Below, one piece after another: positions 9,356 to 17,271 of a stretch of 64,000 nt of DNA (position 1 is the first letter of the stretch; each line of letters begins with the position of its first letter). The stretch is taken from NCBI RefSeq assembly GCF_000021745.1, contig NC_011666.1, positions 2,755,001 through 2,819,000 of the forward strand. Reading direction: 5' to 3'. Below the pieces are notes generated by a model. It was not told where the DNA came from and ran no database searches. It worked only from the letters and a program-made list of their open reading frames with translations. The stretch is from Methylocella silvestris BL2. GTDB taxonomy: Bacteria > Pseudomonadota > Alphaproteobacteria > Rhizobiales > Beijerinckiaceae. Position numbers and translations under genes: made by a program.

Positions 9356-9377
9356 GATTCGTTTTCGATTCGGATTC
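9356..9377. promoter_or_regulatory. Cluster of three GANTC (CcrM) sites upstream of ctrA
   Basis: GATTC occurs at 9356-9360, 9367-9371 and 9373-9377, three sites within 22 bp, about 220 bp before the ctrA start. GANTC is the target of the cell-cycle methyltransferase CcrM; methylation state and GcrA control a ctrA promoter in Caulobacter. TTAA half-sites follow at 9452, 9466 and 9493 but not at the 7-bp spacing of a full CtrA box. Confidence 0.6.
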
Positions 9378-9594: not shown

Positions 9595-10296
9595 ATGCGC
9601 GTTTTATTGATTGAAGACGATAGCGCCACCGCGCAGAGCATTGAGTTGATGTTGAAATCCGAGAATTTCAACGTCTACGCGACGGACCTCGGCGAAGAGG
9701 GAGCCGACCTCGGCAAGCTTTATGATTATGATATCATTTTGCTTGATCTGAACCTTCCCGACATGTCCGGCTATGAAGTCCTGCGGCGGCTGCGGGTCGG
9801 CAAGGTCAAAACGCCGATTCTGATTCTGTCGGGTTTTGCCGCCATCGAAGACAAGGTGAAGGGCCTCGGCTTCGGCGCCGACGATTATCTCACGAAGCCC
9901 TTCCACAAGGACGAGCTCGTCGCCCGCATTCACGCCATCGTACGGCGCTCGAAAGGCCACGCGCAATCGGTCATCGCGACGAGCGATCTCATCGTCAATC
10001 TCGACCAGAAGACCGTCGAGGTCGACGGCGCCCGCGTGCATCTGACCGGCAAGGAATATCAGATGCTTGAGCTCCTCTCCCTGCGCAAGGGGACGACGCT
10101 GACCAAGGAGATGTTCCTCAATCATCTTTATGGCGGCATGGACGAGCCCGAGCTGAAGATCATCGACGTGTTCATCTGCAAATTGCGCAAAAAGCTCGCC
10201 AACGCCAGCCGGGGCCGCAATTACATCGAAACGGTGTGGGGCCGCGGCTATGTGCTGCGCGAGCCGCTCGACGACGAAGAGCGAATCACGGCCTGA
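9595..10296 (+). CDS. ctrA: Cell-cycle master response regulator CtrA
   Basis: An OmpR-type response regulator of 233 residues. The receiver domain (about 1-120) begins MRVLLIEDD and has the phospho-acceptor Asp51 in [14 protein letters not shown] and the conserved Lys in LTKPF. The DNA-binding winged helix (about 125-228) contains the near-invariant [18 protein letters not shown] and [12 protein letters not shown] segments typical of CtrA. CtrA~P binds TTAA-N7-TTAAC, activates division and motility genes, and in Caulobacter blocks the replication origin. chpT, its phosphate donor, is convergent 240 bp downstream. Expression is probably tied to replication through the GANTC cluster upstream. 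Unlike the well-studied Caulobacter arrangement, this gene lies only about 6 kb from the putative origin. Confidence 0.98.
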
Positions 10297-10535: not shown

Positions 10536-11219
10536 TCACGCGGCTTCGCTCTGCGCCGGAGCCGCGGGCGTCGCTTCGATCGCGACGAAATCCGCTCCCG
10601 TTTCCGCCTTGAGGCTCATACCCGCGGCTTGTGCGACGAGGGCGGCGTAATAGGGCTGGATTGCATGGGCGTCGATCGCCTCGGCTGGCGCGCCGGCAAG
10701 GATCGCCGCGGTCAAAGGGGCCAGCTTTGCATTTGTGCCTTGCGCTATGACCCGCAGCGCGATCGTCGGCTCAAGCGCACCCTCTTTGGCGTCCGCCGTA
10801 ATTGTTTCGACCGTGATCACGCCGCCGCGCGGAATGGCGGCCGAGGCGATCAGGCAGAGATTGAGAATCAGCTTGACCTTGTTTTTCGGGAGGAGAACGC
10901 GGGGCGCGCGCCAGTCGAGCTTGATCTTTGCATCGGAAAACAGGCCCCGCGCGACTTTTTCGGCGTCGCCCGTATCGATCGAGGCGCCCGCGGAGCCGGC
11001 CGCGCCGAAAGCGAGCCGGCAGAATTGCAGCCGCGCCGAGGCGTTTTCAGCGCTGGCGCGAATGAGCTGCAAAGCCTCGGCGCGCATGTCGGCGTCTTTT
11101 TCATCTTCCAGGATCTCGAGGCCGTTGACGATCGCCCCGACGGGGCTGATGACGTCATGGCAGACGCGGGAACAAAGAAGCGCGGCGAGATCGAGAGGAT
11201 CGAGTGCGATTTGCGTCAT
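10536..11219 (-). CDS. chpT: Histidine phosphotransferase ChpT
   Basis: A 227-residue protein with a dimerising helical-hairpin DHp-like domain. The phosphorylated histidine is His21 in SRVCHDVISPVGAI, and a degenerate GHKL ATPase-like C-domain follows (about 90-215). ChpT receives phosphate from CckA and passes it to CtrA and CpdR, so it acts on the protein of the neighbouring gene. The sequence fits ChpT rather than a generic kinase, as it has no sensor and no intact ATP-binding boxes. ctrA and chpT converge with 239 bp between them, in which I see no terminator and no credible gene. The ATG at 11219 is the start that leaves the DHp domain complete. Confidence 0.93.
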   Translation of the reverse strand: MTQIALDPLDLAALLCSRVCHDVISPVGAIVNGLEILEDEKDADMRAEALQLIRASAENASARLQFCRLAFGAAGSAGASIDTGDAEKVARGLFSDAKIKLDWRAPRVLLPKNKVKLILNLCLIASAAIPRGGVITVETITADAKEGALEPTIALRVIAQGTNAKLAPLTAAILAGAPAEAIDAHAIQPYYAALVAQAAGMSLKAETGADFVAIEATPAAPAQSEAA

Positions 11220-14549: not shown

Positions 14550-14975
14550 TCAGGGCTTCAGGACGACGAAGATCACGACGCCGATCATCAACAGCGTGGG
14601 GACTTCGTTGATTACGCGATAAAAACGAGCCGTGCGCCGGTTCGTTCCGGCGACGAAGGACCGGCGCGCGGCGTCGAAATAGAAATGCAGCGCGCTCATC
14701 AAGATAACCAGCGCAAGCTTTCCATGCAACCACCCCGCGGCCAGGAATTCGCCTTTGACGGCCAGCGTCAGCCCGGTCGCCCAGACGACGATCATCGCCG
14801 GCGTCATGATCGCGCGAATGAGACGCCGCTCCATGATTTCAAAGGTCTTGGCGAGTTCGGAGCCCTGCGCCGCTCCGGCGTGATAGACGAAAAGCCGCGG
14901 CAGATAGAGCATTCCGGCCATCCAGGAGATCACCGCGAGGATGTGGACGGCCTTGATCGCGAGGTAAAACGTCAC
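14550..14975 (-). CDS. hemJ: HemJ, protoporphyrinogen IX oxidase
   Basis: A 141-residue, four-helix membrane protein with the HemJ start (AIKAVHILAVISWMAGMLYLPRLFVYHA) and the late RFYRVINEVPTLLMIGVV segment. His10 in KAVHIL is the expected haem ligand, and the conserved Arg and Lys residues follow. HemJ oxidises protoporphyrinogen IX to protoporphyrin IX in the inner membrane, near the end of haem synthesis, and replaces HemG or HemY in most alphaproteobacteria. Its ATG overlaps the hemE stop by 4 bp, so the two are translationally coupled and in one operon. Identity is firm. Confidence 0.93.
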   Translation of the reverse strand: MTFYLAIKAVHILAVISWMAGMLYLPRLFVYHAGAAQGSELAKTFEIMERRLIRAIMTPAMIVVWATGLTLAVKGEFLAAGWLHGKLALVILMSALHFYFDAARRSFVAGTNRRTARFYRVINEVPTLLMIGVVIFVVLKP

Positions 14976-16036
14976 GCGCGCCCTCCTCGGCGCACCAGAT
15001 CGACCAAGGCTGCGACATTTTCGACCGGGGTCTGCGGCGTTACGCCATGGCCGAGGTTGAAAACATGCGGGCGGCCCCGGAACGCCTCGAGAATGCGCCG
15101 GGTCGCCGTCTGCAGCGCCGCGCCGCCGGCGATCAGCGCCAGCGGATCGAGGTTGCCCTGGGCGGCGCGCCCGGGGGACAGAGCGCTCGCCGCCCAGGCC
15201 GGATCGACGGCGCTGTCCAATCCGACGGCGTCGACGCCAGTCAGATCAGCGAAATTGACGAGCCGCGACCCGACGCCCTTCGGAAAGCCAATGATTTTGA
15301 CGTCGGGATGCCGGCTCTTGACGCCGGCGACGATTGCTTTGGTCGGCGCAAGGCACCAGCACTCGAATTCGCCGGCGGGAAGAACGCCGGCCCAGGTGTC
15401 GAAGATTTGGACCGCTTCGACGCCCGCGTCGATCTGCCGACAGAGATAGCGAATCGAAGCTTCGACCAGACGATCGGTCAATTGCTGGAACAGCTCCGGC
15501 TGGCGATAGGCGAGAAGACGGGCAGGCCCCTGATCCGGCGTGCCGCGCCCGGCGACCATATAGCTCGCGACGGTCCAGGGCGCGCCGCAAAAGCCGATCA
15601 GCGCTGTCTCGGGCGGCAACGCCTCGCGGATGCGGATAATCGTCTCGAACACGGGTTCGAGACGGCCTAAATCGATCTCGCTGTTCAGTTTTTCGAAAGC
15701 CTCCTCCGATTGAATTGGCTCCAGCCTTGGCCCTTCATTGGTCTCAAAACTCACTTTCTGGCCGAGGGCGTCCGGCACGACGAGAATATCGCTGAACAGA
15801 ATCGCCGCGTCGAAACCAAAGCGCCGGATCGGCTGCAAGGTCGCCTCGGCGGCGATTTTCGGGGAATAGCAGAAATCGAGAAAGCTCGGCGTCTTCGCGC
15901 GCAGCTCACGGTATTCGGGCAAATAGCGTCCAGCCTGCCGCATCAGCCAGATCGGCGGCGGAAATAGCGCCTCTCCGTCGAGGACGCGCAGGAATTTCTT
16001 TGCCGCGGGCGGAGCTGACAAGAGGCGGTCTTTCAT
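14972..16036 (-). CDS. hemE: Uroporphyrinogen decarboxylase HemE
   Basis: HemE removes four carboxyl groups from uroporphyrinogen III to give coproporphyrinogen III. The protein has the signature PPIWLMRQAGRYLPEYR near the N-terminus, the catalytic Asp in ILFSDILVVPDALG, GFCGAPWTVASYM, and FNLGHGVTPQTPVENV at the end. The start is uncertain. The ATG at 16036 gives 354 residues, the usual size; the ATG at 16075 adds 13, and neither has a good ribosome site. I favour 16036 because the upstream block is A+T-rich and lies in the putative origin. hemE bordering the chromosomal origin is the Caulobacter arrangement. It is the first gene of hemE-hemJ. Confidence 0.95.
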   Translation of the reverse strand: MKDRLLSAPPAAKKFLRVLDGEALFPPPIWLMRQAGRYLPEYRELRAKTPSFLDFCYSPKIAAEATLQPIRRFGFDAAILFSDILVVPDALGQKVSFETNEGPRLEPIQSEEAFEKLNSEIDLGRLEPVFETIIRIREALPPETALIGFCGAPWTVASYMVAGRGTPDQGPARLLAYRQPELFQQLTDRLVEASIRYLCRQIDAGVEAVQIFDTWAGVLPAGEFECWCLAPTKAIVAGVKSRHPDVKIIGFPKGVGSRLVNFADLTGVDAVGLDSAVDPAWAASALSPGRAAQGNLDPLALIAGGAALQTATRRILEAFRGRPHVFNLGHGVTPQTPVENVAALVDLVRRGGRA

Positions 16037-16175
16037 AAAAGAGAGAATCTTAGAGACTGGCTTATTCTTATTCATATTGGGGGGTCGATTAGTCTGCCGC
16101 AGCGCTTTCCACAATCGCTTTTGCGGCGGCAAACTTATCCCCTGAAATCACCTGACTGGATACGCTGCCCTGCCG

Positions 16176-16191
16176 TTAAGATTTCATTAAC
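16176..16191. promoter_or_regulatory. CtrA box 1
   Basis: TTAA-GATTTCA-TTAAC matches the full CtrA consensus TTAA-N7-TTAAC without mismatch. It lies in the hemE/ppsR gap, 140 bp from the hemE start. Confidence 0.75.
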
Positions 16192-16203
16192 GATTGGGCC
16201 GGA

Positions 16204-16219
16204 TTAACGCTTCTTTAAC
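16204..16219. promoter_or_regulatory. CtrA box 2
   Basis: TTAA-CGCTTCT-TTAAC, a second perfect match, 28 bp from the first in the same orientation (close to three helical turns), which would allow cooperative binding on one face of the helix. Confidence 0.75.
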
Positions 16220-16368
16220 ACTTTGCGGCCACCAAGGATGCGAACAGCGCGCGGCGTTGTTCACAGGCTTGTGACGATGGCGTCACCAGCCCCGGGCCTG
16301 TGCGTCTTTCTGTGATCTCTTGGCCGGAGCCTTACGGCGTTTGGCTGATATTCGGGCTTGCGATATGG

Positions 16369-16387
16369 TTATCCACTCTTATCCTCA
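16369..16387 (+). promoter_or_regulatory. Pair of DnaA boxes
   Basis: TTATCCACT (16369-16377) and TTATCCTCA (16379-16387) each differ from TTATCCACA at one base. They lie in the same orientation, 10 bp apart, as in origin DnaA arrays. Confidence 0.65.
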
Positions 16388-16437
16388 CTTATGAGCCCCG
16401 CCGATAAGAGGGCGAAAATGTCGTCGGGAGGCAGGCC

Positions 16438-17271
16438 ATGGGGCGCCATCACGTCAATCTGCATCTCATTTCCGATGCGACGGGCGAGACCCTGATCGCG
16501 GCGAGCCGCGCCGTTGCGGCCCAATATCATGGCGTCTGCGCCATCGAACATGTCTATCCGATGGTGCGCAGCCATGCCGAGCTCGAAAAGGCCATCGTCG
16601 AAATCGAAGCCGAGCCGGGGATCGTCCTTTTCACTTTGGTCGAGCAGGATCTCGCGCGCCGGCTGATGGAGGCTTGCGCTGCCATTGGCGCGCCGAGCCT
16701 TTCCATCCTCGCGCCGATCATGAGCCTGTTCGAATCCTATATCGGGACGGCCGTGACGCCGCGTCCGGGCGCCCAACATTCCCTCAACGCCGATTATTTC
16801 CGCCGCATGGACGCGCTGAATTACACGCTAACGCATGATGACGGACTGCAATCGGACAGCTATGAGGCGGCCGACGTCGTGCTGATGGGAGTCAGCCGCA
16901 CCTCGAAAACGCCGACGAGCATCTATCTCGCCAATCGCGGCGTCAAAACCGCCAATCTGCCGTTCGTGCCGGATTTGCCCCTGCCGAAATCGGTCGAGAA
17001 CTTGCGCAATCCGCTCATCGTCGGCCTGCTGGCCTCGCCGGAGCGGATCGTGCAGATCCGGGCGAATCGCCTTCTCACCATGAACGCCGACCCCGAATCG
17101 CCCTATGTCGACCGCAGGCTCGTTGCGGAAGAAGTGGCGCAGTCGAAAAAACTGTTCGATGCACGCGGCTGGCCGACCATTGACGTAACGCGGCGCTCGA
17201 TCGAGGAGACCGCGGCGGCGATCATCAGTCTGCACAAGCTGCACAAGATGAAATTCATCTCGGCTGCATGA
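16438..17271 (+). CDS. ppsR: PpsR-type kinase/pyrophosphorylase (DUF299)
   Basis: A 277-residue protein of the DUF299 family, which reversibly phosphorylates phosphoenolpyruvate synthase or pyruvate phosphate dikinase using ADP and phosphate. The start NLHLISDATGETL and the P-loop-like GVSRTSKTPTSIYLANRG (about 150-167) are family hallmarks. VRIQIR-type and VDVTRRSIEETAA segments follow near the C-terminus. A strong GGGAGG lies 7 nt before the ATG at 16438. It is the first gene of a tightly packed operon: the next three genes each overlap their neighbour by 1-4 bp. Position beside the origin gives it high gene dosage. Whether the target is PPDK or PEP synthase cannot be told. Confidence 0.92.
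   Translation: MGRHHVNLHLISDATGETLIAASRAVAAQYHGVCAIEHVYPMVRSHAELEKAIVEIEAEPGIVLFTLVEQDLARRLMEACAAIGAPSLSILAPIMSLFESYIGTAVTPRPGAQHSLNADYFRRMDALNYTLTHDDGLQSDSYEAADVVLMGVSRTSKTPTSIYLANRGVKTANLPFVPDLPLPKSVENLRNPLIVGLLASPERIVQIRANRLLTMNADPESPYVDRRLVAEEVAQSKKLFDARGWPTIDVTRRSIEETAAAIISLHKLHKMKFISAA

Follow-up and report, generated by a model that had tools for sequence, protein, structure and literature searches.

Predicted CtrA boxes in the hemE–ppsR gap, the putative chromosomal origin of Methylocella silvestris, and their patchy conservation among relatives

In this study, we performed a computational analysis of the 401-bp gap between hemE and ppsR in Methylocella silvestris (16037-16437 of the 64-kb stretch of DNA analyzed here, hereafter the window) and of the corresponding gaps in its relatives. 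Convergent sequence evidence suggested that this gap is almost certainly the chromosomal replication origin. It holds two perfect TTAA-N7-TTAA motifs, predicted binding sites of the regulator CtrA, and the occurrence of this motif in the gap is beyond chance and conserved. We consider it probable that DnaA opens this origin through its boxes and an A+T-rich block and that CtrA~P on the two boxes holds initiation off. A predicted CtrA box at the origin is a widespread, patchy trait and no peculiarity of M. silvestris.

The window covers positions 2,755,001-2,819,000 of a single 4,305,430-bp contig, which was treated as a closed circle, and the gap lies at 2.771 Mb. The genome has a G+C content of about 63% and belongs to Hyphomicrobiales, Beijerinckiaceae in the NCBI taxonomy; M. 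silvestris TVC, the nearest named record found, shares 97% identity in PpsR and 100% in CtrA. The genes rho, hemJ and hemE lie left of the gap, and ppsR (DUF299), maf, aroE and coaE lie right of it. The borders are hemE (uroporphyrinogen decarboxylase; 14972..16036, minus strand; TIGR01464 over its cut-off) and ppsR, encoding a COG1806-type DUF299 kinase-pyrophosphorylase (16438..17271, plus strand; PF03618 and NF003742 over their cut-offs), both transcribed away from the gap. The A+T content of the gap is 46.9%, compared with 36.4% for the window.

GC skew was determined by sampling 40 stretches of 20 kb together with three pieces of the window (43 rows), and 20 further stretches were sampled near the candidate origin and terminus, giving 1.18 Mb with some overlap in addition to the window. 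Of the 19 rows between 0.645 and 2.58 Mb, 17 had a negative skew, and 21 of the remaining 24 rows had a positive one. The cumulative minimum was reached where the 2.74-2.75 Mb bin ends, about 20 kb from the gap. At about 1-3% per stretch, the skew is noisy and weak, though consistent, and this minimum is accurate only to some tens of kb. A skew minimum far from this locus, which the initial annotation had named as refuting an origin here, was looked for with this sampled skew and not found. A 22-base dif pattern had no match in the whole genome with up to 3 mismatches. When a 26-base consensus was scored in the sampled stretches of 500-685 kb, a dif-like site at 598,972 matched 22 of 26 positions, and the next best matched 17. 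The polarity of GGGNAGGG turns at this site: the sampled stretches of 500-600 kb hold 16 forward and 2 reverse copies, and those of 600-685 kb hold no forward and 17 reverse copies. No clear switch of this motif was seen at the origin itself, the rows of 2.755-3.44 Mb containing 4 forward copies and 8 reverse ones. Directly opposite the dif-like site lies position 2,751,700, which is 19.5 kb (0.45%) from the gap. With up to one mismatch, the only parS sites of the genome (GTTTCACGTGAAAC) start at a distance of 56 kb from the gap. Thus, the skew minimum, the dif antipode and parS back the location beside hemE that had been proposed for a Cori-like origin, and the features of a Cori-type origin are found together here, namely a gap between hemE and a COG1806/DUF299 gene, a skew switch with a position opposite the terminus, and a cluster of DnaA boxes.

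The sole strong DnaA-domain match begins at base 854 of the contig (L049, G000:C1:854), 1.535 Mb from the origin and about 70% of the way from origin to terminus. According to excerpts of the respective papers, dnaA is usually near ori in Rhizobiales (PMC8116508), and the origin of a Methylocystis genome was predicted by Ori-Finder with hemE as an indicator gene and dnaA not nearby (PMC3794950); CtrA is not mentioned in the excerpted text of the latter.

Two putative DnaA boxes, each one mismatch from TTATCCACA, stand in tandem on the plus strand, TTATCCACT at 16369..16377 and TTATCCTCA at 16379..16387, and match the tandem pair of the initial annotation exactly. Among 2000 shuffles of the gap, 2 produced two or more one-mismatch sites, and a perfect TTATCCACA does not occur in the gap. 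The motif scan further gave four weak DnaA-like 9-mers with 2 mismatches, TTATTCATA (16068..16076), CTTTCCACA (16105..16113), TTATCCCCT (16135..16143) and TTGTTCACA (16257..16265), also on the plus strand. Allowing up to 2 mismatches, the gap has six DnaA-like 9-mers in total, all on one strand, against 0.79 expected on both strands; none of 2000 shuffles reached six. An inverted repeat had likewise been noted in the gap, and three candidates were found: CTCTTATC/GATAAGAG (16376..16410; arms at 16376 and 16403), which overlaps the DnaA box pair, TGAAATC/GATTTCA (arms at 16143 and 16180) and CACAGGC/GCCTGTG (arms at 16262 and 16296). The A+T-rich block reported at the hemE start was recovered as well, with 72% A+T over the 50 bp of 16029..16078, a composition reached by 49 of the 50-bp positions of the window and therefore unusual, not unique. 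This block is a candidate unwinding element and holds a GANTC site at 16045-16049. It may overlap N-terminal codons of hemE, because the start of this gene is ambiguous (ATG at 16036, an in-frame ATG at 16075, or TTG at 16132).

Two further motifs were observed in the hemE–ppsR gaps of relatives. GANTC sites cluster in the first 60 bp beside hemE, with 105 against 26 expected in 68 gaps of the family and 43 against 14 expected in 39 gaps of the order; they often lie within AGAATCT, and the window has one such site (16037-16096). This cluster is possibly a methylation-sensitive unwinding or promoter element. In addition, an 8-mer of the CCTGTTGA/ATCAACAG type is enriched in family and order gaps and is perhaps a variant DnaA site.

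Both CtrA boxes described initially, 28 bp apart from start to start, were exact in sequence: box 1, TTAAGATTTCATTAAC, at 16176..16191 and box 2, TTAACGCTTCTTTAAC, at 16204..16219, each a perfect TTAA-N7-TTAAC on the plus strand. They are the only TTAA-N7-TTAA matches in the window, where 0.08 were expected, and 2 of the 16 in the whole 4.3-Mb contig. Shuffling of the gap gave at least one box in 6 of 2000 replicates and two boxes in none. The boxes overlap none of the DnaA-like 9-mers found in the gap with up to 2 mismatches; the nearest one-mismatch DnaA box is 150 bp away, and weak DnaA-like 9-mers lie at about 33-38 bp. A scan of the gap for the IHF consensus WATCAN5WTR gave no match.

CtrA and its phosphotransferase are both encoded in the window. 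The ctrA gene (9595..10296, plus strand; NF045991 equivalog, 418 bits over a cut-off of 350), whose product is the regulator expected to bind the boxes, starts 6.8 kb from the ppsR start, and the genome has no second CtrA match at E ≤ 1e-60; the CtrA receiver (residues 1-118) aligns to the solved CtrA 4qpj, the sole entry at E ≤ 1e-60. The chpT gene (10536..11219, minus strand; NF046018 equivalog, 281 bits over a cut-off of 240) encodes the phosphotransferase expected to act on CtrA. In the 300 bp upstream of ctrA, neither a perfect nor a one-mismatch CtrA box was found; three GANTC (CcrM-type) sites occur at 9356-9377, with starts within 18 bp of each other and 222-239 bp before ctrA. In the window's genome (9595-11219), and likewise in M. 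silvestris TVC (L219), about 5-7 kb separate the two genes from the origin; in the other congener, G076, ctrA lies about 608 kb from ppsR. A general placement of ctrA beside the origin in the family was considered and rejected, as ctrA was within 9 kb upstream of ppsR in 0 of 40 family genomes (L102-L141); the other 35 family loci had flanks too short for this check. Among 22 genomes, the distance between ctrA and ppsR was at least 165 kb in 19 with both genes on one contig and 6.8 kb only in two (G000 and G040), and the genes were on two contigs in one (G072). These distances suggest that a recent rearrangement moved ctrA to an early-copied position.

We read 13 of the 14 other perfect TTAA-N7-TTAA sites of the genome. 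One lies 47 bp before a MinC reading frame, one lies 8 bp before an FtsK reading frame as called from its first start codon, and one (L231) is inside a called OmpA frame; for the genes neighboring the remaining sites that were read, we know of no link to CtrA. The perfect box is not enriched genome-wide, with 16 copies against 32 of the reversed pattern AATT-N7-AATT. In Brucella, minC is described as a CtrA target in the excerpted text of PMC2877005.

The boxes are conserved in relatives. In our counts, family and order refer to groups as coded in the genome collection, and these codes cannot be translated into NCBI names. The family sample comprised 80 genomes, with ppsR in 75; all 75 loci were read, and hemE was upstream in 68 of them. 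Loci without hemE upstream of ppsR, which stand outside the box fractions, made up 7 of 75 in the family, 4 of 43 in the order, 2 of 29 in the class and 3 of 8 among named relatives. One genome with a weak match (G090) is likewise not part of the counts. A perfect TTAA-N7-TTAA was present in 46 of the 68 family gaps. Any other spacing between 1 and 20 occurred in 0-7 gaps, and 300 shuffles gave the box in a mean of 0.30 gaps (maximum 2). With one genome taken per genus, 23 of 35 genera had the box. The box started 200-300 bp before ppsR in 40 of 51 cases from the first 63 family gaps. Reading towards ppsR, its half-boxes were mostly extended to TTAAC, with C in 41 and 39 of 54 boxes, respectively, as a head-to-tail site would predict. 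Two boxes were present in 8 of 68 gaps, and the starts of paired boxes were 27-28 bp apart in the window's genome, its sister strain, L117 and L130. The top 14 enriched 7-mers of the family gaps comprised nine DnaA-box cores or extensions, four CtrA half-boxes and one CTGTTGA; for example, GTCCACA (a DnaA-box core or extension) occurred in 42 gaps against 2.4 expected, and CGTTAAC (a CtrA half-box) in 29 against 1.6. The perfect box was missing from 22 of the 68 gaps and 12 of the 35 genera, so the family as a whole cannot depend on control through it. Among those without it was G076, the other Methylocella species in the sample, which had a one-mismatch TTAGAGATTTATTAAC at -252. Counting one-mismatch boxes was tried on the 22 boxless gaps and set aside, the contrast being too small (9 hits at spacing 7 against 2-7 for spacings 3-13). 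Among the eight loci of named relatives, hemE was upstream in five, and one of these five (M. silvestris TVC, L219) had boxes.

Outside the family, the box became less frequent. The order sample, with one genome for each other family, gave 43 loci read and 39 gaps, 13 of which held the box, against at most 4 for other spacings and a shuffle mean of 0.81 (maximum 4). Families of other orders (29 loci read, 27 gaps; 8 of 38 class genomes had a match but no locus and stand outside the counts) had it in 2 gaps, with a shuffle mean of 0.13 and a maximum of 2. CtrA half-boxes were absent from the top 14 enriched 7-mers or 8-mers of the order and class gaps. The position was 228-270 bp before ppsR in 6 of the 13 other families with a box and elsewhere in 7. 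A box in the first member was the reason for re-sampling two families, which is a biased choice; with these first members counted, the box was found in 16 of 22 and 7 of 15 gaps, respectively. The seven boxes of the second family were all at -247 to -249. Of those in the first family, six were at -237 or -238, nine (all of one genus) at -165 to -189 and one at -288. Other spacings recurred in these sets as well (N19 in 7 and N8 in 6 of 22; N17 in 7 of 15), as the pairing of boxes would in part predict. A quick HemE+PpsR tree with 134 rows implied 27 changes in the presence of the box, compared with a shuffled mean of 44.5 (0 of 200 shuffles as low), and 14 within the family, compared with 18.6 (2 of 200 as low); one supported group of nine families had no box at all. 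Since the box was not clustered among the 39 other families (10 changes; 61 of 200 shuffles as low), the case for its ancestry within the order comes from the partly shared position only. The position shared by several families suggests common ancestry with repeated loss, of which the tree is no proof.

Comparison with known origins places this gap closest to the Caulobacter type. In excerpts of PMC1914354, Cori of Caulobacter crescentus is described as a region of about 400 bp between hemE and a COG1806/DUF299 gene that carries TTAA-N7-TTAA CtrA sites and DnaA boxes; the Methylocella gap shares its gene borders, its length of about 400 bp, an A+T content above that of the genome and both kinds of site. 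In contrast, Cori has five footprinted CtrA sites, whereas Methylocella has two perfect boxes known as motifs, with no overlap with a DnaA-like 9-mer and no IHF consensus found, and its DnaA-domain gene and parS are 1.53 Mb and 56 kb away. The origins predicted for Rickettsia, Wolbachia and their kin in the same excerpts (PMC1914354) resemble it in the hemE border, the CtrA motifs and similar in-silico criteria; however, those predictions allowed a mismatch and concerned mostly A+T-rich genomes, whereas the present boxes are perfect, come from a genome with about 63% G+C and were compared with shuffles and other spacings. In Hyphomonas neptunium, a CtrA ChIP peak adjoins the origin (PMC7200025, in part); this species is a close relative of Caulobacter in which binding was shown, while the Methylocella sites are known from motifs. 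Sinorhizobium meliloti and Brucella abortus belong to the same order as Methylocella, and CtrA controls their cell cycle. The excerpts consulted report neither a CtrA motif nor CtrA binding at the S. meliloti origin, with CtrA linked to replication without origin sites (PMC4433202), and no binding of B. abortus CtrA to its own origin (PMC2877005). These two origins and the 26 of 39 other families without a perfect box partly uphold the initial view that such control is not general in Hyphomicrobiales, but the box in 46 of 68 gaps of its own family and 13 of 39 others shows that the trait reaches far beyond one organism. Titles of the matches listed among open-licence PMC papers included no report of CtrA boxes at Beijerinckiaceae origins.

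In the mechanism that we consider probable, DnaA would bind the TTATCCAC-type boxes and open the A+T-rich block beside hemE, CtrA~P would bind the two TTAA-N7-TTAA boxes, which lie between the DnaA boxes and this block, and initiation would be held off until CtrA is removed or dephosphorylated. We infer recognition by CtrA from the exact motif and its conservation; repression of initiation by CtrA~P is proposed by analogy with Caulobacter, whose Cori supplies the model for such a block (PMC1914354 and PMC6169604, both in part). Because the CtrA boxes overlap no DnaA-like 9-mer found in the gap and the IHF consensus has no match there, interference with a DnaA filament, its oligomerisation or unwinding would be likelier than competition for one site.

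The boxes might instead be CtrA promoter elements for hemE or ppsR with no direct role in replication, which we regard as unlikely. In favor of this reading, CtrA acts as a transcription factor, hemE and ppsR are divergently oriented around the gap, and some of the perfect boxes elsewhere in the genome directly precede genes (minC and ftsK); on the other hand, the box stays at origin loci that have lost one of the two genes. Among four family loci without hemE that keep rho-hemJ-gap-ppsR-maf, it was present in L065 and L067 (two of three genera) and missing from the congeners L060 and L062, and among four without ppsR that keep rho-hemJ-hemE-gap-maf, it was present in the congeners L279 and L283 (one of two genera) and missing from the congeners L278 and L281. 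Such loci thus had the box in 4 of 8 cases, whereas relocated hemE or ppsR genes had it in 1 of 9: within 900 bp of 1 of 7 hemE genes away from their usual neighbors (L288, from a 78% complete genome where ppsR was not found), and near neither of the two ppsR genes without hemE, hemJ or rho nearby (L112 and L121), all small numbers. L074 was left out with its ppsR at a contig end; the hemE locus of the same genome (L284) has two boxes. Outside the family, one locus of the form rho-gap-ppsR (L198) had the box, and L145, L210 and L180 did not. Even with so few loci, several of them paired congeners, the box shows a tendency to stay with the origin locus rather than with hemE or ppsR. The promoter and origin roles are not exclusive.

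It is also improbable, slightly more so, that the gap is an origin to which CtrA can bind while the boxes are relics or minor modulators and CtrA acts indirectly, as proposed for Sinorhizobium. The patchiness of the box, which is present in 46 of 68 family gaps and in 13 of the 39 other families and changes state 27 times on the tree, would fit such a decay, as would the S. meliloti and B. abortus origins that CtrA does not bind in the excerpts cited above (PMC4433202, PMC2877005). However, eight exact bases at one exact spacing are kept in 23 of 35 genera, when shuffles predict 0.3 of 68 gaps, which implies selection on the box. Chance matches of an A+T-rich motif in an intergenic region that is no origin are very improbable and largely refuted: the weak GC skew, whose minimum is good to some tens of kb, leaves some room for them, but two boxes never arose in the 2000 shuffles, and the dif-like site, parS, synteny and conservation all agree. 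We retain the hemE–ppsR gap as the almost certain origin, at which CtrA~P probably holds initiation off.

The question whether the origin is directly silenced by CtrA outside the Caulobacter lineage has so far rested on few models, and the two from Hyphomicrobiales, S. meliloti and B. abortus, answer no to CtrA at the origin in the excerpts consulted. What is new here is a perfect, spacing-exact box in predicted origin gaps: in one family it was found in 46 of 68 genomes, in the rest of the order in 13 of 39 families, and in other orders of the class in 2 of 27. As a tentative reading, for which we see somewhat less than an even chance, direct control of the origin by CtrA may be an old trait of Hyphomicrobiales, with a box about 200-300 bp before ppsR in several families, lost in the rhizobial and Brucella models and acting without the overlap of DnaA boxes seen in Cori. 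This reading is weakened by the fact that only 6 of the 13 boxes of other families are at this kind of position and that the larger genus of one re-sampled family has its boxes elsewhere. If it is true, the view that CtrA does not touch the origin in Hyphomicrobiales would have been drawn from lineages that lost the box. A box in two thirds of one family's gaps and a third of the other families makes the question testable in many species, and species pairs with and without the box, together with loci in which the box is separated from hemE or ppsR, offer a natural resource for doing so.
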